A DNA stretch of 17,508 nt from an uncultured Mycoplasmataceae bacterium (lineage in GTDB: Bacteria > Bacillota_I > Bacilli_A > Mycoplasmatales > Mycoplasmoidaceae), in contig CASEPW010000024.1 of the NCBI GenBank assembly GCA_949289925.1, positions 1 through 17,508 on the forward strand, in the 5' to 3' direction. Below are positions 262 to 11,828 of this stretch, piece after piece. A model generated the notes under the pieces. It was not told the origin of the DNA. It searched no databases and worked only from the letters and a program-made list of their open reading frames with translations. Position 1 is the first letter of the stretch; every line of letters begins with the position of its first letter. The position numbers were made by a program, and so were the translations under genes.

Positions 262-3021
262 ATGAAAAGAAAAAGTAAAATTTTTGTTACTTCTTTTTTA
301 TCATTAGCTATGGCTGGTGTTGTTGCTACCTCTTGTTTTATTACTTTTAGACCAAAACCTATATATCCACTATATACATATATTCTAGAATTTACTAATA
401 CAAATACACCATATGCATCTACATCAGATGTAAATGAAATAATAAAAGGAAATGAATCAAAAAACAAATATATCAAGGATATGATTCAACAAACTAGAAC
501 TATTTTAGATTGATATGAATCGTATTATGAAAAAACTTATCATGAAAAATTCCCAGGATTAATTTTAGATTTTAGAAATTTAAATTCAGTTCCTTCTGAA
601 GGGGAAAAGAACTTTTTCTTATTATTAGATAGAACATTCAAAGCAATAGATAGTAGATTGGGTTTTAATAATATTCCAAGAACTCCTCTTTCTGTTCAAG
701 AAGGTTTTTTTCAAAAAAATACAGAACTTATTAGTTTTTATTGATCACCTGATTTTAATGCAATTACAACTTGATTAACATATATGTTTACAGATCAATT
801 CCCTATTGGTAATCAATGACCAAAATTATATCGTCTATTAGAAAATCCAAAAGAAAATTGACAAATAAATTTAAGAAAAGAACTTGATAGAAAAAATCTT
901 TTCCACTCTCCTATTGAATTGTTAAATTATAGTTCTAAACAAAAAGCTAGTTCAACTGATTATATTGGTCAATTTTATACTTCATTATCAAATACTATAG
1001 GTACTTGAACTGTTAATAATTCAAAATTGAATATTCAAGAATCAACTGTTAGTGGGGATACTAAAGGTTTATATGATACTACTTCTAATCCAGGCGATGG
1101 TATATTATTTGTTAATTGAATAACTTCTCAAATTGCTAATATTCCTTTTGTTGAGGATGGAATAAATTCTTCTATACCATTTTTAATTAGAGCAGGTTAT
1201 TTTAATCCAAATAATCCAAATGCAGATTATAGTTTTAGAGATTGATACTACAATAAATCAACTGTAAGTGGACCTGCACAATTTAGATTATGAAATAAAT
1301 CTTCTCCATTTGATGTCAATAAAACACCATTTAATCCAGCTTTCTCTAATGCTCCATCATCATCTTTTTTTCAATCAGCATGAACAGCATTAACATCTTG
1401 AACAACAGTTTCAAATTATAATAACATCAGGAATCCACAAACTCCTATAGGTTCTGATCATACTTATTTAGTTTCAACAGGTTCAAAAACATCAATTGAT
1501 GATTTAAAAAATTCTTATGATGAAACAACTAACACTTTAACTTTTAGAATAAGACCAATTCCATGAGTAGATTATACAGGTAACCAAATTAATGTTAATA
1601 ATCAAAAAATGTTTTTATCACCAGAAGATTTTACAGCTTCAATAATAGCATTTATTCGTTCAAACCAAATTTCATTAAACGCTAATAGTTATTTTATAGA
1701 CTTAATCTCTCTAGATGTCAATAAAACAATTAATGATTCAAAAAATTTAGAACGTAATGAATCACTAAATGATACAAAAGAATTTGTTTTACACTTTAAA
1801 GAAAAACCTGAATTATCTATTGATTCAGTTTTAGATATCTTACAAAAGCAATATTTCTGTGCTATTCCAGCATTTAAACAATCAGTAAAGAATATTATTG
1901 ATTATGATACATTTATGAGTCTTTTGCCAAATGCTGTTGAAATAACTGATAAACCTAATCCATATATTAATGGAGAATATTATTTAAAAGTAAATTCTTC
2001 ACAAATTGATTTTTATAATTTCTATGGTTCAGGAAACCCTGTTTTAAATTCTAATTCTTGAAAAGATTATGCTTTTGCATCTCCATATTATATTTCTAGT
2101 ATTGATCAGCAACAAATAGTCTTTAATCTTAATGAATCTTATTTTAATGCTTTTAAAGACGAATTAAATGATCAAAAATACAAATCATTTAAATTAACTA
2201 ATACTATTTCTCCTAATTCTCAACAACCACCTAATGGTAATGGAAATAGTGAAGAAAATATTGTTGCAAAAATTCCTAAGATAGTATTGAAATATGCAGG
2301 AAGTTATTCTGAAATTTTGACTTTCGAGCAATTTAAAAATAATGAACTTGATGTTTCATTAATTTCTTCAGCTAAATTATTAGAAGCAAAGCAATCATTT
2401 CCAAATGATTATAGAACTCAGCTTATAGAAAAAAATAATAAATCAAATCTTATTACTTTTAACCTTCAAGTATTTAGTAAAAATGATAAAAATATTATTT
2501 TAGACACTAATGGTGACCCTATAGTTAGAGATAATGGTAATTATGAAGTTGTTAATTATGATATTGATGAATATGGTAATTATATTTTTCCAGAAGGAGT
2601 TAATCCAAAATTAAAATCTAATATCTCAAAACCTTATTATGATTTAATTGTTAGAGATTACTATACTCCAATCGAAGCATATAATCCAGATAAAAATATA
2701 TATGCTACAAGTGCGACAATTAGAGAAACCATAGTTAATTGTATTAATTGAGTATCATTAAAATCTGTTGTTTTCCCAGGAATTACTAAATCTATAGAAA
2801 ATTCTTTTTTACCATATGGTGTATATGATTTAGTTGATAAAAACAACCCTGATTATATTAAAAAATATTGATGATATGCTGCATATAAAACATATATGTT
2901 TAATGATTTAAATATTTTAGATGTTAATACATATGAACAAAGAAAATCAGGCTTAATAATTTGAACATATGATGAGTTATTGAATAATTCCATTAAAAAT
3001 AACAATAAAGGAGGCAATTAA
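262..3021 (+). CDS. oppA: oligopeptide ABC transporter substrate-binding lipoprotein OppA
   Basis: Encodes 919 residues when TGA is read as Trp (first one at 511-513). The N-terminus is a lipoprotein signal: basic MKRKSK, a hydrophobic stretch, then lipobox A-T-S-C with Cys25 as the likely lipidated residue, so the protein should sit on the outer face of the membrane and capture peptides for the permease. The start is supported by a strong AGAAAGGAGG at 247-256, five bases before ATG. The length far exceeds the roughly 540 residues of classical OppA but is normal for the large mycoplasma OppA/P100-type proteins; I found no clear Walker A motif in the N-terminal part I translated. The function rests mainly on signal peptide, size and position directly before the permease genes; the stop codon TAA shares its last A with the next start codon. 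Low sequence similarity to other OppA proteins is expected. Confidence 0.85.
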
Positions 3022-5666
3022 TGTTTAAATATTTTGTTAAACGTTTATTATTTGCAGCCTTAGCTTTATTTGTATTATTAGTTTTAGTATTTTTCCTAAT
3101 GCAAGCTGTTCCAGGTTATCCAATTCCTAGAGAAAATAATGATACTGATGCATCATATTTAGAAAAAGTAAGACAAGCAGGATTATTGGACAATGTATTT
3201 GTTCAATTCTGAAGATTTTTTTCAGGTTTATTTACAGGTAAGGGCTTTGGTATTGTTTATTCAAATGGTTCTAATGTATTAGATACAATGATAGAACCTA
3301 TTAAATATACATTGATGATTGCAGGACCAGCATTCTTACTTTCATCAGTTATTGGTATATTATTAGGGATTGTTTCTGCTTATTATAGAGGTAAATGATT
3401 GGATATTGTCATTAATGCTATTGCAGTATTATTCATTTCTATACCATCGTTTGTTTTTGCATTATATCTTATTCAATTAGCTGGGTTAATAGGACTCCCC
3501 ACTAATTTTATAGTTCCAGGTTCAGATGGTGCCTCAACATCACAAGTTATTTTGTCTATGATAATACCGATATTATCTATGACACTTTCTTCTATTTCAA
3601 TTATTATATATTACACAAGAAATGAATTAGTTGAAGTATTCAAACAAGAATATATTAAAACGGCTTTAGCAAAAGGTTATAAATTTAGAACTGTTGTTTT
3701 TAGATATGCACTTAGAAATGGAGCAATTCCAATCATTTCGATATTGGCACCATCATTTGTTACAGTTCTATCAGGGTCAATAATCATTGAAAAATTCTTT
3801 AACGTTCCTGGAACAGCTAATGAATTAGTAAATGCAATAGTTAAAAAGGAATTTAATATTGTTTTATTCTCTGCAGTATTTTATTCTAGTATATATTTCA
3901 TTATTCAAATATTAGCTGATATTACATATTCTTTTATAGATCCTAGAATAGTTTTAGCTGAAAAATCTTCTGTAAGTTTATGAAAGAAAATAGAATGTAA
4001 ATTTGGTAGAGAATTAAAATCTATGTTATTTGATAAATTTAGTTTTTTAAATAAAGGAATAGGTTTAAATAAGACTATTTCAAATGACGATATATATGAA
4101 ATTTTTAGTGAAACAAAATTAAAAAGTATAGGAATAAAAGAAAATGATTATAAATTAGTACAATACCTATATGAAAATAATAAATCTTCTTTTGAAAGGA
4201 TAAAGAATAATATAAACACAATTAGATTAAAAGATTTAGATAGATTAATATCTGTTGGTTTAGTTCAACCTGTTTACAATGAAGGTATTTCATATGAATT
4301 GAAACCAAATGTTATTCATAGATTAGAAATAAAATCTGATACAACAAAGAATGCATTTAAATTTTATGATGAAGTTAATATTGATAATTCATTAATGAAT
4401 AGCATTTCTTCACGTTTAAGATATAAAATTGTTGCAAAATCAATTATTGATAATTCAGTTCAAGAATTAGATTCTAAAGCTAATGAATTATTATTTTTAC
4501 CTGTTGATGAAGAAGAATTAAATTTTGTTTCACAAAAAGGTATCGAACAAAATGTTAATTATGATATTTCTCCTGAAATGTTTAACCAAGTTGATATCTT
4601 TTCTTCTTCTCCTGAGCAAATTACAGGTAAACCAACTACATATTTAAGAGATTTAGGTAGAAGATTCTTTAAGTCTAAAATTGCTACATTTTTTACTTTC
4701 TTATTAGGATTTATTGTTTTATTTTCTATTATTACTTCACTCGTCAATTTAAATCATATAGATGATCCTATTTCATTGGGTATTCCATCATCAATAATTG
4801 CTTACTTACCACCAAGAATTCCGTGATTAGGAATATCAGGGATTACCACTGTTATAGTAGATTATGATACATTTAATGCAATTAATGCATTAGGTATAAA
4901 GGGGATTTATGAGCAAGTTATTCCTATAGGTAGTCAATATCAATTGGTTAATTTTAATCCATATTTAATACCTGGTTTAGAAAATGTTACTTTAATTTTA
5001 GGAACAGATGGTATAGGTAGAAATTGATGAAATCTACTTTGATTCTCTACTTTACAGTCACTAGTTTTAGCTATATTAGTAGCAGTTTGTTCAGTATTTA
5101 TAGGAACTATTTATGGTTCTATAGCAGGTTCTAAAGCAGGTAAAATGACTGATGTTATTATGATGAGAATAGTTGAAATTTTATCAGGTGTTCCATTAAT
5201 TTTATGAATTTTAATATTTGGTTTAGTATTTTCAGGTGGTAATTTATCTTTACCTATTGTAGGAATCTCATTGATTCTAGTATCGTGAATGTGACCATCG
5301 ATTACTGCAAGAACATTCATCATTAAATATAAAGATGCTGAATTTGTTCAAGCAGCAAGAACTTTAGGTGCAAGTGAAACTAGAATATTATTTTCACACT
5401 TATTGCCTAATGTTGCAGGTAGATTAGTAGTTATTATGGTAAATATGATTCCTAAAGTGATTTTCTTTGAAGCATCATTAGTGTTTTTAGGAGTTAGATC
5501 TGCTACTGATATTTCACTAGGTTCGATGATTGAAACAGCAAGATTAAATCCATATTTATACTTACTATTAGGTCCAACAATTATGATTGTATTAATTACT
5601 CTTTCAGCACAATTAATTTCTAACCATTTAAATGACTCATTAGATCCAAAGGTAAGTGGTGAATAA
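3021..5666 (+). CDS. oppBC: fused oligopeptide permease OppB-OppC
   Basis: A single uninterrupted frame of 881 residues holds both permease subunits of the peptide importer. Residues 1 to about 325 are OppB: a first membrane helix after MFKYFVKRLL, periplasmic-type loop, further helices, EAA loop around 210-225 (EYIKTALAKG) that contacts the ATPase, and the typical end IDPRI. Residues about 326-553 are a charged linker with a winged-helix-like stretch at about 377-430. Residues about 554-881 are OppC: first helix, LGTDGIGRN motif, EAA loop from 772 (DAEFVQAARTLGAS), and the family ending LNDSLDP. OppB ends and OppC begins in the cytoplasm, so the fusion is topologically possible. Start ATG 3021 has AAAGGAGG at 3007-3014. 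An internal ATG at 4023 could serve as a separate oppC start, but only weak GGTAGAG precedes it and no stop codon separates the halves. Confidence 0.85.
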
Positions 5667-5667
5667 T

Positions 5668-6939
5668 ATGTTTAATAAATCATTAAAAATTAGTAATTAT
5701 ATTCCAGATGAAAAAAATACATTACAAAATAATGAAATTTTAGATATTGAAAATTTGAAGGTTTATTTTAAAACTAAATCTGGTTTTGTTCAAGCTGTTA
5801 GAGGTGTAGACTTAAAAGTTAATCGTGGTGAAATAATTGGTCTTGTTGGTGAATCAGGATCAGGAAAATCTGTTTCTGTAAAATCAATTATGGGTTTCAA
5901 TGAAGGGTCTATATTAAAAGCAAAAATGTTAAATTTAAATTCAATAGATATTTTAGGGATTAAAAAGAAGGATTGACCATTTATTAGAGGGACAAGAGTA
6001 GGGTACATTCCACAAGATCCATTATCATCTCTTGATCCTACAAAAAAAATCAAAACACAAATTATAGATGCAATTAAAATTACTCAAAAAAGAAAGTATA
6101 ATAATGCAATTTTTGAGATTAATGCTTATGCTAGTGGTAAATTAACACAAAAGCAAGTTTCTAATCAAAAATATATTTCAAATTCGCTAGAAGAAAAGAA
6201 ACAAAAATTAAAAGAAGCAAAAGAGGCTTATAAGTTAGCAATTAGCAAAGAATCATTATATGAAAAAATGTATAATGTACTTACTTTTATTGGTATTAAA
6301 AATATTGAAAAATCTATTAATTCTTATCCTCATGAATTTTCAGGTGGTATGAGACAAAGAATAGTAATTGCTATGACAATTGTTGGTGAGCCTGATTTGA
6401 TTATTGCAGACGAGCCTACGACTGCACTTGATGTTACTATTCAAGCAAAAGTAATCGATTTAATAAAAAAACTAAGAGATAATTATAAAATTGCAATTAT
6501 TTTTATTTCTCATAATATTTCTCTAGTCGCAAATTTATGTGATTATATTTATATTATGTATGCAGGAAGAATAGTGGAAAAAGGAACTGTTTCAGATATT
6601 TTTACAAATCCAAAACATCCATATACATGAGCATTAATAGGCTCAATCCCTGATCCTAAATCTTCAAAAGAATTAACTTGAATTATTGGTACACCACCAA
6701 ATATGATTTCGCCACCAAAAGGAGATGCTTTTGCAGCAAGAAATATTTATGCTAGAAAAATTGATTTTGAAAAACAACCACCAATGTTCAAAATTTCAGA
6801 AACACATTATGCAGCTACATGATTATTACATAAAGATGCGCCATATCAACCAATACCTGAAGAAATTAAAGAAAAGTTATTAATAGCAAAAAAATCAATT
6901 GCTATTAAAAATAGAAATAGAGGTAATAATGGAAAATAA
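5668..6939 (+). CDS. oppD: oligopeptide ABC transporter ATP-binding protein OppD
   Basis: Encodes 423 residues, one of the two ATPases that power peptide import. In order: Walker A GESGSGKS at 61-68, Q-loop with Gln116 in YIPQDPLSSLDP, a lysine/glutamate-rich insertion at about 137-195, ABC signature FSGGMRQ at 224-230, Walker B LIIADEP at 244-250, and switch His282 in ISHNIS. The C-terminal part follows the Opp/Dpp pattern (NPKHPYT, then a tail of about 100 residues). ATG 5668 starts one base after the permease stop codon; an upstream in-frame GTG at 5656 is less likely. All catalytic motifs are present, so the subunit should be active. The OppD assignment over OppF rests on gene order and the shorter insertion. 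Confidence 0.92.
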
Positions 6940-9376
6940 AAATAATCAATTATCTGTAGAAACAAAAAATAAAATTCTTTCTGTAAAAGATTTATCAAAA
7001 TACTTTACAAAAAATGGAAAAATTTTTAAGGTTCTTGATGAATTAACTTTTGATATTTATGAAGGTGATTTTTTTGGTGTTATAGGAGAATCTGGTTCTG
7101 GAAAGTCTACTACAGGTAAATGTGTAATCCGTTTATTAAATACAAATGGTGGAATAATCACGTTCATGGACAAGATTATTAATAATAAAAAAATATCTAA
7201 ATCAACAAAAAATTGATTAACAAAAAACATGCAAATGATTTTTCAAGATCCTATGTCATCATTAAATCCTAGAAAAAATGTAATGTCATTAATTTCTGAA
7301 CCAATTATTATTAATAAAACATTAAAGAAAGAAGCAAATGACATAATTGAAATTTGTAAAACTATAAATCCTTTTTTCTATCACATTTCGCAATGACAAG
7401 ATTACAATCTTAACATTAAATATTTATTACCATATTATAAAAAACTATATAATTCTTATAAAAATATAATTCATAAATTAGAATCATTTGATGTCAAAAA
7501 ATATAATTCAATTGAACTTTTGCAAGATGAATTAACATCATTTTTTATTAATTTAGAAAATGAATTAACAAAAAATTTAAATAGTTTAAATAATTTAGTT
7601 AAGGAAACAAAACAAATAATTTTTAATAATTATGATACATATTTAAAACATCAACTTGATGAAACTGAAATTAATTTTATAGATGCAAAAAAGAAATATT
7701 CTGACGAAAAACAAAAATATAAAAAATCAGAAGAATGAATACAGTTAAAAAAAGAACGTGATGAATTGTATGAACAAAAAAAAGCATTAGAAAAAATGTT
7801 AGAAATAAAATTTAAAGAGCAAAATTCTGTTTTTATTTCATCACTAATAACAGACTATAATAATCAAGCAAATTTATATCATCAAAGAAGAAAAACTACT
7901 ATCGATTTATTTGATTATTCTTTAAATAAAATTAAATCTGCTATTGCTAAAGATGTGGCAAAAATAATGGAAAAAATAAAATTTGATATTTATTTATCAT
8001 TGGATGATATTAGAGAATTTTCTGATGCAATAAATAAACATGTTTCAACAAAATACCAATGATTATTGGAAAAAATTACTAAGCTATCTAATGAGAATGA
8101 AGAAATTGGAGAATCATTAAAACAAATTTTTAATTCTGAATCAAAATCATTAGAACTAACTCCTGAAATTTCTTATTATTATGAAAAATACAAAAAAATC
8201 GATAAATTAATTGATGAAAAAATAGATGAAGATTTTCTTTTAACATCTAAAACTATTAAAAAAATAGTTCATGATTTTGCAAAAAAATCAAATGATAATA
8301 AACATAAAATTATCAAAGAAATTAAAAATAAAAATGATGAAATCAGCAAATTAGATATTAAGCTAGAAAAGATTTCAATAATTTATAGATATTCTGATTT
8401 AAAAAATCAAAACATTGAAAATTTACATAATGAAAAAGAAAATTTAAAAGATAAGGATATCATTAGAAAAGATTTTATTAATCTTGATAATCATTATTTT
8501 AATCATGAAATAAAACCAAAATTATTAAAACAACAAAAAGAAATAGAATTTTTTTCTTCACAATATGATTTTTTATCTAGAAAAATTTTAAAATTACAAA
8601 GAAAAATTTTATCTTTAATCAAAAGAAACTTAAAGGATAAAGACCCAGATTTTAAAATTGCTTTTGCAAACTTAAAAACAGAATTTAAAAATAGATTAAA
8701 TAATTTAGATGCATGTAAAATTCAACATCAAAGTATGGTTGATCAAGTTGAATTATATAAATCATTGAGATCAAAAAATACATTAATTTTAAATTCAAAT
8801 AAAAAATATTTACAAAATGCTTTAAAAACAGAAAAAGTATTTGAAGCATTAAATGAAGTAGGTTTAAAAAATGAACATGCATTTAGATATCCTCATGAAT
8901 TTTCAGGTGGTCAAAGACAAAGAATTGTAATTGCTAGAAGTTTAATTTCTAAACCAAAATTCATTATCGCTGATGAACCTATTTCTGCTCTTGATGTTTC
9001 AATTCAAGCACAAGTTGTAAACATTATGAAAAATCTTTCAAAAACTCAAGGAATCACTTTTATGTTTATTGCACATGATTTATCAATGGTTAATTTCTTA
9101 TGTAATAGATTAATCATTTTACATAAAGGTAAAATAGTTGAAAAAGGAAATACTAATGAAATATTTAATAACCCAATACACCCTTATACAATATCATTAA
9201 TAAAAGCATCACCTGAATTATCTAAAATTCATGTTGACTTATCTTCTTTTGATTCAGATTTAAATTATGATAAAAACTATTCAATTCATAATAAACCTGA
9301 ATTTCATAAAGTTCCAAATGATAATGACCATTATGTTTTTTGTAGCGGGAGTCAATTTAAAAAATGAGTAAAATAA
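6929..9376 (+). CDS. oppF: oligopeptide ABC transporter ATP-binding protein OppF, with large insertion
   Basis: Encodes 815 residues, the second ATPase of the peptide importer. Walker A GESGSGKS lies at 53-60, Q-loop Gln106 in MIFQDPMSSLNP, then about 520 residues rich in Lys, Glu, Asn and Leu with coiled-coil character (about 120-645) before the ABC signature FSGGQRQ at 658-664. Walker B FIIADEP is at 678-684 and switch His716 in AHDLS. The split nucleotide-binding domain is a known trait of mycoplasma OppF proteins, which are around 800-850 residues long; the role of the insertion is not known to me. ATG 6929 overlaps the end of oppD by 11 bases and has AGAGG just upstream, suggesting translational coupling. 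The motifs on both sides of the insertion are intact. Confidence 0.9.
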
Positions 9377-9897
9377 GCAATGGCACATTTAAAGAAGGAT
9401 ATGTTGTTAATAAAATTAAACACCCTTCTTCAGCAGATGAACCAATTAATTTCGATAAATTATACTATCCAAATGGAATTATTCCTTTTATATTTTTGTT
9501 GTTTCTTTTATTTGCGGGATGATTAGCTGTTTTTATAGCAGGGTGACAACTTGATATTTATTTTAAATTAAAGTGACAAAATTATTTAGTATCAGTTCCT
9601 GGAGTTACATTATGTTTGAATTTATTTTGATTGATATCAAGATCAGGTATATTCAACTCATTTGGATATATGGGATTAAAATTTAGTAGAATTACCAAAA
9701 TTTCAGCTCTTAAACAAAAGGTTCATATAACACCAATTAATGAATCATTAAATGAAATAAAAACATATGAAGAATTTACTAAATATGTAATTGAAAGACA
9801 AAAATATACAAAAAAATTTATGTATATCTCTTTATTTATTCATGGTATTATATTTTTAGCATCAATAATTGTTTTATTAATTGTTACATATGCATAA
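9364..9897 (+). CDS. DUF3899-like membrane protein
   Basis: Encodes 177 residues with three predicted membrane helices at about 39-60, 74-92 and 152-177, and a conserved-looking SRSGIF stretch at 92-97 after helix two. That motif and the overall shape resemble the mollicute DUF3899 family, a family without assigned function. The start codon overlaps the oppF end by 13 bases and the stop lies eight bases before deoD, so it is part of the opp transcript. No clear ribosome binding site precedes the ATG; translational coupling to oppF is the likely mode. An accessory role in the transporter is possible from position alone, but nothing in the sequence proves it. Confidence 0.7.
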
Positions 9898-10657: not shown

Positions 10658-10699
10658 TGGTATGAAGATTAAATTCAAAAAAATCATACCATTTTTTTT
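10658..10699 (+). terminator. terminator of opp-deoD operon, overlaps next start codon
   Basis: Perfect 8-bp stem TGGTATGA (10658-10665) with TCATACCA (10684-10691), an 18-base loop, then eight T residues (10692-10699). It has the form of an intrinsic terminator for deoD, 24 bases after its stop codon. The start codon of the next gene (10662-10664) lies in the 5' arm and the T-tract encodes Phe-Phe-Leu of its signal anchor. Confidence 0.6.
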
Positions 10700-11828
10700 A
10701 TTAGGTTTAATTTCAACTGCTTCTATAGGTGTTGGTACCTATTTTATCGTTCAAAACTTTACAATTGATAAAAGGGCTACAATAATCCCTTTGGAACCGT
10801 TCGATTGAACTGACTATAAAAATGCTGAGACATTTTCACAAAAAAATTCTTTTAAAGTTACATTTGCTATTCATAATGGATTATCATCAGGTACAGCATG
10901 AAGTTTTTATTTAGATACAAATTCTTCATCATCACATGTTTATTGATATTTAATGACAAATTTCCATGTTGTAAATGATGCAGTCCAATATAATGGTGGC
11001 TCTATTGATTCTCAAAGTTTATTCTTTAAACATAATACAGAAATTACAAGAGGATTTGAATTATCTGATACAAATGAGAATGGTTCATATAGAGTATTAA
11101 CGTCAAAAAATTGAGTAAATAACTACAGACAATTTAATGTAGAAAAAGTTAATGTAATAACAGATAATTCAAAAACTTATAATAATCATGATGATTTAAA
11201 TTTATTTTCAAATACTGCATCTTCAGAAAATAATTATTACAACATAGACATGTCAGTAATTAAACTAACTATTACAAAATCAACATATAATCAATTTGAT
11301 TCCGCTATTTTTTCAAAAATTGCAAACCCATATCAAAAATGATTAAATGATAAAAATAAATTAAAGTCATTTTCAAACAATGCCATGACATATATAGCTG
11401 GAAACCCTGCACATCCTGCAGACAATGAAAAAGAACAAGGTCAATTAATAGCTCAAGCGATAGATACATATCAATTTGATGGTTTTTATTCTTATTTAAA
11501 TGTACAACAAGGCCAAAATCAACCATTAGATTCTGTTGAACGTTTAAATTCTTTATATTTTGCATCATCATACTCTTCGTCATTTTATAATCAATGACCT
11601 TTAATAGAAGGATCTTCTGGTTCTGCAGTTTATCAATTACCAATTGACTTTGATTTCAATAATATGCAATTTAATTGAATGGATCAATTACCAATGGGAA
11701 TTTATTGAGGGGGTATTTCAAATAATAAAACTAGCTCATTTAAACCAGGTTTTATTCCACTAAAAACCACACGTTACAACATTTATGAGAATTTTTCTAT
11801 TTTTTTAACTTCATCTTATAATAATTAG
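10662..11828 (+). CDS. DUF31 (MIP-type) trypsin-fold protease, membrane-anchored
   Basis: Encodes 388 residues. An N-terminal signal anchor (basic MKIKFKK, then a hydrophobic stretch to about residue 30) has no lipobox Cys, so the body is probably outside the cell but tethered. A serine protease triad can be read: GTAWSFYLD leading to TNFHVV with His102, YNIDMSVIKL with Asp196, and EGSSGSAVY with Ser319. This order and these motifs are those of the mycoplasma DUF31 peptidases, which include the immunoglobulin protease MIP. The partner protein MIB is not in the window, so an immunoglobulin substrate cannot be assumed; it may equally feed peptides to the neighbouring Opp system. The protein is shorter than the large lipoprotein members of the family. 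Ends in TAG; no clear terminator follows. Confidence 0.75.

Follow-up and report, generated by a model that had tools for sequence, protein, structure and literature searches.

The window analyzed here is a stretch of 17,508 nucleotides (contig CASEPW010000024.1, forward strand) from a metagenome-assembled genome (MAG) of an uncultured Mycoplasmataceae bacterium. It carries an operon for a peptide importer of the Opp type, an ATP-binding cassette (ABC) transporter, in which both membrane permeases, OppB and OppC, appear to be encoded by a single gene, here called oppBC, with a long linker between the halves and a candidate winged-helix-like module inside that linker (Table 1). Under genetic code 4, positions 3021 to 5666 form one open frame of 881 codons, including 10 TGA codons that are each read as tryptophan. 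The Pfam permease domain BPD_transp_1 matched above its cutoff in two stretches, one per half (whole-protein E value of 6.5e-45). The OppB N-terminal family PF19300 scored 35.8 bits against a cutoff of 23.8, and OppC_N (PF12911) scored 22.0 bits, just under its cutoff of 23.9; the NCBIfam models Opp3B and Opp3C covered residues 1 to 313 and 519 to 878, each below its curated cutoff. On reading the protein, we found the EAA loops at about residues 201 to 219 and 771 to 785 and both C-terminal family ends intact, as an earlier model-made description of the letters alone (the sequence-only reading) had stated. That reading had also described OppB as running straight into OppC. The open frame with two complete halves is borne out, but the halves do not meet at a simple junction: they are parted by a linker of 225 residues (311 to 535).

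The TGA at positions 3981 to 3983, which the sequence-only reading had taken as tryptophan, corresponds to W321, and tryptophan is aligned there in two relatives (P0002 and P0005). Code 4 is supported because two further TGA codons, at W729 and W756, fall in columns of invariant tryptophan among 26 aligned fused proteins. A tRNA search of the MAG returned four genes (Lys, Phe, His, and Leu) and no tRNA-Trp, so the case for code 4 rests on these tryptophan columns.

To refer to individual sequences, we use P for relative proteins (P0001 being the window protein), L for loci, G for genomes, and g for genera. The search for relatives was limited to proteins of ~485 to 1,542 amino acids (aa) and found 61. 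In 53 of these (P0002 to P0054), as in the query, OppB and OppC profiles both matched in one chain, some of these proteins being partial; the source names among them were Mycoplasma sp., Ureaplasma sp., Mycoplasmoidaceae bacterium, and Ureaplasma ceti (P0034). Because the length limit hides unfused relatives, this search gives no proportion of fused genes. A search of the family for opp genes gave any match in 44 of 95 genomes. Classes were assigned to the kept loci L001 to L042 only, which came from the relatives and family searches and include some other families of the order, with matches lacking a kept locus left out: 10 were fused and 32 separate. The fused loci included all six genomes of the window's genus, all three of g3, and G113 of g11; in G001, of the window's genus, the fused locus is cut by the contig end after the junction. 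Both g8 genomes have separate oppB and oppC. Profile A1 run against genome contigs yielded 29 named loci, several of which are, by their length, the same contigs; the genes were fused in 9 loci, separate in 18, and truncated by a contig end in 2. A contig scan made before A1 had confirmed none, and no relative was confirmed in viral contigs. The sequence-only reading had named a sequencing error as a possible cause of the open junction and had proposed comparing related mycoplasmas. The same open junction is found in many assemblies, and a sequencing error is therefore ruled out as its cause. Conservation across these assemblies supports a genuine fusion of OppB and OppC in one gene.

The linker itself is open well beyond expectation. 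Given the base composition, the probability that its 225 codons in the window would contain no TAA or TAG is ~10^-8.5, and the other two frames hold 23 and 24 stops. The linkers of all 10 fused loci with DNA lack in-frame TAA and TAG, with 6 to 24 stops in each of their other frames; the log10 probabilities sum to -45, which is an overcount because the 10 loci are related. The ratio of nonsynonymous to synonymous substitution rates (dN/dS) of the linker in three pairs, all without the module, was 0.31, 0.25, and 0.86, compared with 0.04 to 0.23 for the membrane halves. The linker is constrained in two of the three pairs and nearly free in the third.

The origin of the fusion was approached with trees built on the two halves without the linker. 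The profile check set contained 86 rows (54 proteins, 9 fused loci, and 23 separate pairs). Removing 22 rows that were >88% identical, Ureaplasma sp. Hg2 among them, left 64 rows for a quick tree, and 11 more (5 separate rows on long branches or far out and 6 fused rows) were removed before the careful tree and the approximately unbiased (AU) tests. The fused rows formed one clade except that the unfused Ureaplasma sp. Hg1 (g8) was nested in it; the quick tree gave the same two changes. A single clade holding all fused rows together was rejected (AU P value of 0.015), while a sister relationship between Hg1 and the larger subclade's 28 fused rows was not (P = 0.527). With this outcome, fission and double fusion are indistinguishable; one fusion followed by one split and two fusions would fit equally well. 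The oppB and oppC genes of Hg1 and Hg2 (L045 and L047) are separate, with very short tails and an overlapping TAATG, which may reflect gene fission.

Unfused loci in g7 and g10 suggest how an ordinary linker may have formed. In the loci read, OppB frames were 402 to 441 aa long (the interrupted L016 aside) and OppC frames began ~32 to 55 residues ahead of the profile start, and OppB tail plus OppC head come to about the length of an ordinary fused linker (87 to 168 residues). By this comparison, the ordinary linker was probably assembled from an OppB tail and an OppC head once the stop codon and the oppC ribosome-binding site had been lost. In four loci (L012, L015, L036, and L038), oppB and oppC lie in one frame with one (TAG) or two (TAA TAA) stops between them, a state close to fusion; in L016 (G029), a single TAG interrupts the oppB frame.

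The content of the linker, which the sequence-only reading had overlooked, is the more unusual part of the locus. Six fused proteins, the window protein and P0002 to P0006, are 875 to 882 aa long with linkers of 216 to 226 residues; other fused linkers span 87 to 168 aligned residues, making the module bearers ~100 residues longer. The final profile placed the module in 6 of the 54 proteins P0001 to P0054, all six being rows of that profile. The five other OppBC copies share 16 to 44% identity with the window copy, and a region search with residues 330 to 545 returned P0002 only. When all OppBC rows were left out of the profile, the cut-out modules of P0002 to P0006 scored 26.2, 25.4, 15.8, 29.2, and 23.2 bits, each above its 1,000 shuffles.

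Similar modules were detected on other membrane proteins of the same genome with a series of profiles: A2, made from the OppBC linker stretch; A3, which added stretches from an ABC exporter and a P-type ATPase; and, later, A6, with all five hosts as rows. Run against 20 genomes, A2 matched 8 at an E value of 1, and its best match away from the site was the ABC exporter of its own genome (E = 4.9e-4). This host is an MsbA-like protein of 709 aa with the module at its N terminus (residues 19 to 94); the P-type ATPase is of the calcium type, 999 aa long, with the module at its C terminus (residues 934 to 999). A3 added a loop of a FolT-like energy-coupling factor component (ECF-S; E = 9.8e-6), whose family matches were under the cutoff, and the C terminus of C106, apparently a membrane-bound fragment cut by a contig end (E = 0.006); it also matched ScpB (E = 0.045). 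With A6, the five hosts, all of them profile rows, were followed by ScpB (E = 4.9e-4) and then by a next match at 1.7. All five hosts read as membrane proteins.

These assignments were controlled by leaving out one host at a time. On whole proteins, the ABC exporter then scored 17.0 bits, the P-type ATPase 23.3, C106 26.3, and the ECF-S protein 24.8, each above all of 1,000 shuffles. Profiles of the OppBC (6 rows) and ECF-S (7 rows) modules, which share no row, aligned in hhalign with a probability of 95.1 and a score of 42.4, compared with at most 16.1 in 60 column shuffles and at most 15.1 in 76 windows of real OppA, OppD, and OppF alignments. The leave-one-out tests strengthened the other hosts and weakened the window copy judged alone. 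The ECF-S protein had 42 relatives, of which 15 were aligned: the insert occupies the same loop in the query and six relatives of 437 to 446 aa (P0063, P0064, and P0066 to P0069), P0065 (272 aa, 100% identical) appears to be the ECF-S fragment from this genome itself, and the other nine (320 to 398 aa) lack the module, P0101 having a longer loop of its own. Scanning 104 proteins and six ATPase frames with the profile placed the module in 13, all of them profile rows or, for the ATPase, the source of the row. Four genomes of the genus have homologous P-type ATPases whose ends lack the module; in G007 (g3) the ATPase tail differs and gave no module match, and in G002 no P-type ATPase reached the threshold applied. 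In the five other genomes of the genus, A3 gave nothing beyond an E value of 0.066, and a pattern search with a guessed motif found no match in the window's own genome. The profile comparisons point to a like module on three further membrane proteins of this genome at the least, and probably on a fourth, presumably on the cytoplasmic side.

The closest family to this module appears to be ScpB. All 16 modules compared with 13 ScpB proteins of the family gave a probability of 94.9 (E = 4.4e-8), and the ECF-S modules alone gave 92, while control windows scored at most 18.1 against ScpB. The Pfam family SMC_ScpB (PF04079) matched 8 of the 16 modules individually (best E value of 3.8e-6); in whole hosts it reached 23.0 bits in the ECF-S protein (E = 6.6e-5) and 18.2 bits in the ABC exporter (E = 0.0019), under its cutoff of 27.4. 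The modules align with columns 194 to 267 of the 13-protein alignment, and the match covers only the C-terminal part of ScpB, which we take to be its second winged helix, the kite family having winged helices in tandem. Against solved structures, five of the nine rows matched by A2 were helix-turn-helix (HTH) regulators (best whole-sequence E value of 0.0039; domain, 0.091) and the other four were ATG7 chains. HTH-type regulators made up 7 of 10, 10 of 15, and 6 of 13 rows in further PDB listings, the last with one row named ScpB, and the remaining rows look like chance; the top structure matches included DNA-binding regulators of the MarR and Lrp types. The helix-helix-helix-wing pattern expected of the module was absent from a crude secondary-structure propensity plot. 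From profile similarity above controls, we consider the linker module to be probably winged-helix-like and similar to the C-terminal part of ScpB.

An ordinary ScpB is also encoded in this genome (L089; 146.6 bits). A survey of the family with profile A4 matched 69 of 95 genomes at an E value of 0.1. Among the 29 loci L104 to L132, 21 read as ScpB, and the five of these that were checked were confirmed by Pfam; L113, L114, L117, L118, and L131, along with matches lacking a kept locus, were left out of this reading. L109 is a Fic protein and L105 has an HTH-like end. L104 (G016, g3), an open reading frame (ORF) that lies at the edge of a contig, contains a winged-helix-like stretch (E = 2.9e-7) and matches no Pfam family; the neighboring ORF reads as a transporter with multiple helices.

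Around oppBC, the gene order oppA, oppBC, oppD, and oppF recurs in the loci of relatives (Table 1). The 919-aa gene upstream is assigned as putatively OppA-type by its position and DUF5396 only. Further downstream, positions 10662 to 11828 of the window weakly resembled Ig-specific serine endopeptidases of the MIP family (NF045841; 24 bits, with the cutoff at 125).

Table 1. Features of the oppBC locus in the window
Feature	Position	Strand	Basis or remark
Gene in oppA position, 919 aa	262..3021	+	Pfam DUF5396, E = 1.2e-13; conserved position; 1-base overlap with oppBC start
Stretch with Shine-Dalgarno AAAGGAGG before oppBC start	3001..3018	+	Duplex energy of -11.7 kcal/mol
oppBC, single 881-aa OppB-OppC permease gene	3021..5666	+	Code 4; 53 relatives with both halves in one chain
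OppB half, residues 1-310	3021..3950	+	NCBIfam Opp3B 1-313; Pfam PF19300, PF00528
Linker, residues 311-535	3951..4625	+	Free of in-frame TAA/TAG; predicted cytoplasmic
TGA read as Trp (W321)	3981..3983	+	Trp aligned there in P0002, P0005
Putative winged-helix-like (ScpB-like) module, residues 368-439	4122..4337	+	Profile evidence
OppC half, residues 536-881	4626..5663	+	NCBIfam Opp3C 519-878; Pfam PF12911 (sub-cutoff), PF00528
oppD ATPase	5668..6939	+	Pfam ABC_tran, oligo_HPY; NF043079; ATG start chosen, mechanical ORF from GTG 5656
oppF ATPase, 815 aa	6929..9376	+	Long insert splits ABC domain
177-aa ORF after oppF	9364..9897	+	Hydrophobic stretches; no Pfam family; same place in 9 other loci

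The reading we favor, at a probability of roughly 0.7, is a single-chain Opp membrane domain with a tethering linker, which among the module-bearing relatives of the window protein also holds an ScpB-like module. The most likely mode of action is that of an ordinary Opp membrane domain, only with the two halves tethered, and OppBC would presumably associate with the operon's own OppD, OppF, and OppA-type protein. From the topology typical of these families, the linker and the remaining module sites are predicted to face the cytoplasm. The role of the module may be protein-protein docking, either to a soluble partner common to the hosts, for instance the kleisin ScpA, or to like modules on other transporters. 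We give this role some preference, tentatively, because winged-helix motifs of the kite proteins, which are structurally similar to ScpB, mediate dimerization and kleisin binding, according to a review (PMC4989898). A wider version is conceivable and rather doubtful: in a small clade of Ureaplasma-like mycoplasmas, one ScpB-like module would have spread to five or more unrelated membrane proteins, on their cytoplasmic side, as a docking system that couples transport to kleisin/condensin or to a shared regulator, with the OppBC linker as one of its sites.

Several observations weigh against the favored reading, most of them bearing on the module. The window module alone matched no Pfam family. 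Against a profile that lacked every OppBC row, the whole window protein scored 5.6 bits, a value reached by 27 of 1,000 shuffles, and the cut-out module scored 14.4 bits against a maximum of 14.3 in 1,000 shuffles; because it is weak without these rows, the copy is identified largely through alignment with its relatives. The window's own predicted copy is the weakest of the set and rests partly on those relatives. P0007, the sister of P0006, has no module, and the module is therefore dispensable. The OppBC modules alone reached a probability of only 39 against ScpB (score of 29.3; shuffles, at most 18.2). The A2 match to the P-type ATPase (E = 0.013) ranked behind those in G007 (0.006, over 23 residues) and G037 (0.010), so it was not significant at the A2 stage. 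As for the single chain, the linker dN/dS of 0.86 in one pair is near neutral, M520, ahead of the OppC half, is common to the six module-bearing proteins, and the source of the window is a MAG that is 74% complete.

Close behind docking in our ranking, as a possibility to which we give about one chance in three, comes neutral accretion, i.e., that a functionless winged helix spread into tolerant loops and tails and is drifting. The low identity among OppBC copies, the absence in P0007, and the faster evolution of linkers than membrane halves, nearly free in one of the pairs (all of which lack the module), would suit such drift, but a near-constant length is kept in the six OppBC linkers (216 to 226 residues) and in seven ECF-S proteins (435 to 446 aa), proteins that are 50 to 87% identical to those of the window's genome, a recognizable pattern is retained, and the five hosts here all read as membrane proteins, though the family of C106 is unassigned. 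That the module binds DNA and tethers transporters to the nucleoid, as the MarR and Lrp-type regulators among the best structure matches could suggest, is unlikely: its charge varies from acidic (9 K+R versus 14 D+E in the ABC exporter) to mildly basic, and the closest family, ScpB, belongs to a group described as kleisin partners (PMC4989898).

It is less likely still that two proteins are made after all, by internal initiation in the linker or by proteolysis, for which a long, poorly conserved linker would be a plausible target. We expressed the strength of Shine-Dalgarno sites as the duplex energy with the anti-Shine-Dalgarno, in kilocalories per mole. The best internal site in the window linker is a TTG at codon 427 (-3.9), hardly weaker than the gene start of L052 (-4.0). 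The sequence-only reading had pointed to a start near position 4023 (ATG 335, M335); we rejected it as an internal oppC start, as the site is weak (-2.9 versus -11.7 at the gene start) and the methionine occurs in P0003 only among the five nearest relatives, and so in 2 of the 6 module-bearing proteins. The M520 site in the window, at 0.6, is no site. In the nine other fused loci, internal linker sites reached -1.8 at best, compared with -7.9 for the separate oppC of both g8 genomes, and no internal methionine is common to the 26 aligned fused proteins. Gene starts of fused loci ranged from -4.0 to -12.9 in nine loci, L053 having an ATG at -5.9 and a TTG at -1.1, and separate oppC genes in six loci read ranged from -3.1 to -11.9. 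An artifact of sequencing, assembly, or genetic code is scarcely credible: the window is a MAG contig and its frame needs TGA as tryptophan, but the open junction is repeated in many assemblies and TGA falls at invariant tryptophan columns.

Where an Opp permease naturally consists of one chain, the stoichiometry of OppB to OppC is fixed, and such a protein would be a ready construct for structural work. Among its relatives are separate genes, genes in one frame with a stop between them, fusions, and perhaps a reversal to two genes. Were the module truly a docking site, a single cytoplasmic partner would serve several unrelated transporters, an arrangement for which we know of no precedent. 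Among the open-licence literature matches listed (titles and abstract starts), none dealt with fused OppB and OppC in Mollicutes or with the grafting of a winged helix onto transporters; for Ureaplasma ceti, one name notification was listed.

Compared with the solved OppB/OppC and DppB/DppC pairs (8z21, 8z1v, 8j5q, 8wd9, and others), the OppB half aligns over the whole chain and the OppC half over the C-terminal transport domain, with the same operon partners, OppD and OppF. The nine solved sequences listed are separate chains of 287 to 339 residues, whereas here there is one chain with a 225-aa linker. Closer to hand, the separate oppB and oppC of other Mycoplasmoidaceae (for example, L012, L014, L015, and L045) show 39 to 62% identity; they are two genes with an oppC ribosome-binding site of varying strength, in contrast to the one gene of the window. 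Five distant long permeases (P0055 and P0059 to P0062, with P0060 named Anaerolineales) likewise have two BPD_transp_1 domains in one chain, show 25 to 27% identity, and are most likely separate fusions. By reading, P0055 has ~480 further C-terminal residues; P0056 and P0057, also among the relatives, have one permease domain each. Unlike ScpB of the SMC-ScpAB complex, a member of the kite family, the module is a short stretch embedded in membrane proteins. Single-chain membrane domains occur in other ABC systems, FhuB being one. PMC11466899 gives AppBC, DppBC, and OppBC of B. subtilis as two proteins and names the exporters AlbCD, EcsAB, and YthPQ, which have single-chain membrane domains; these exporters resemble the window protein in carrying two membrane domains per polypeptide and differ from it in being other types of ABC transporter.

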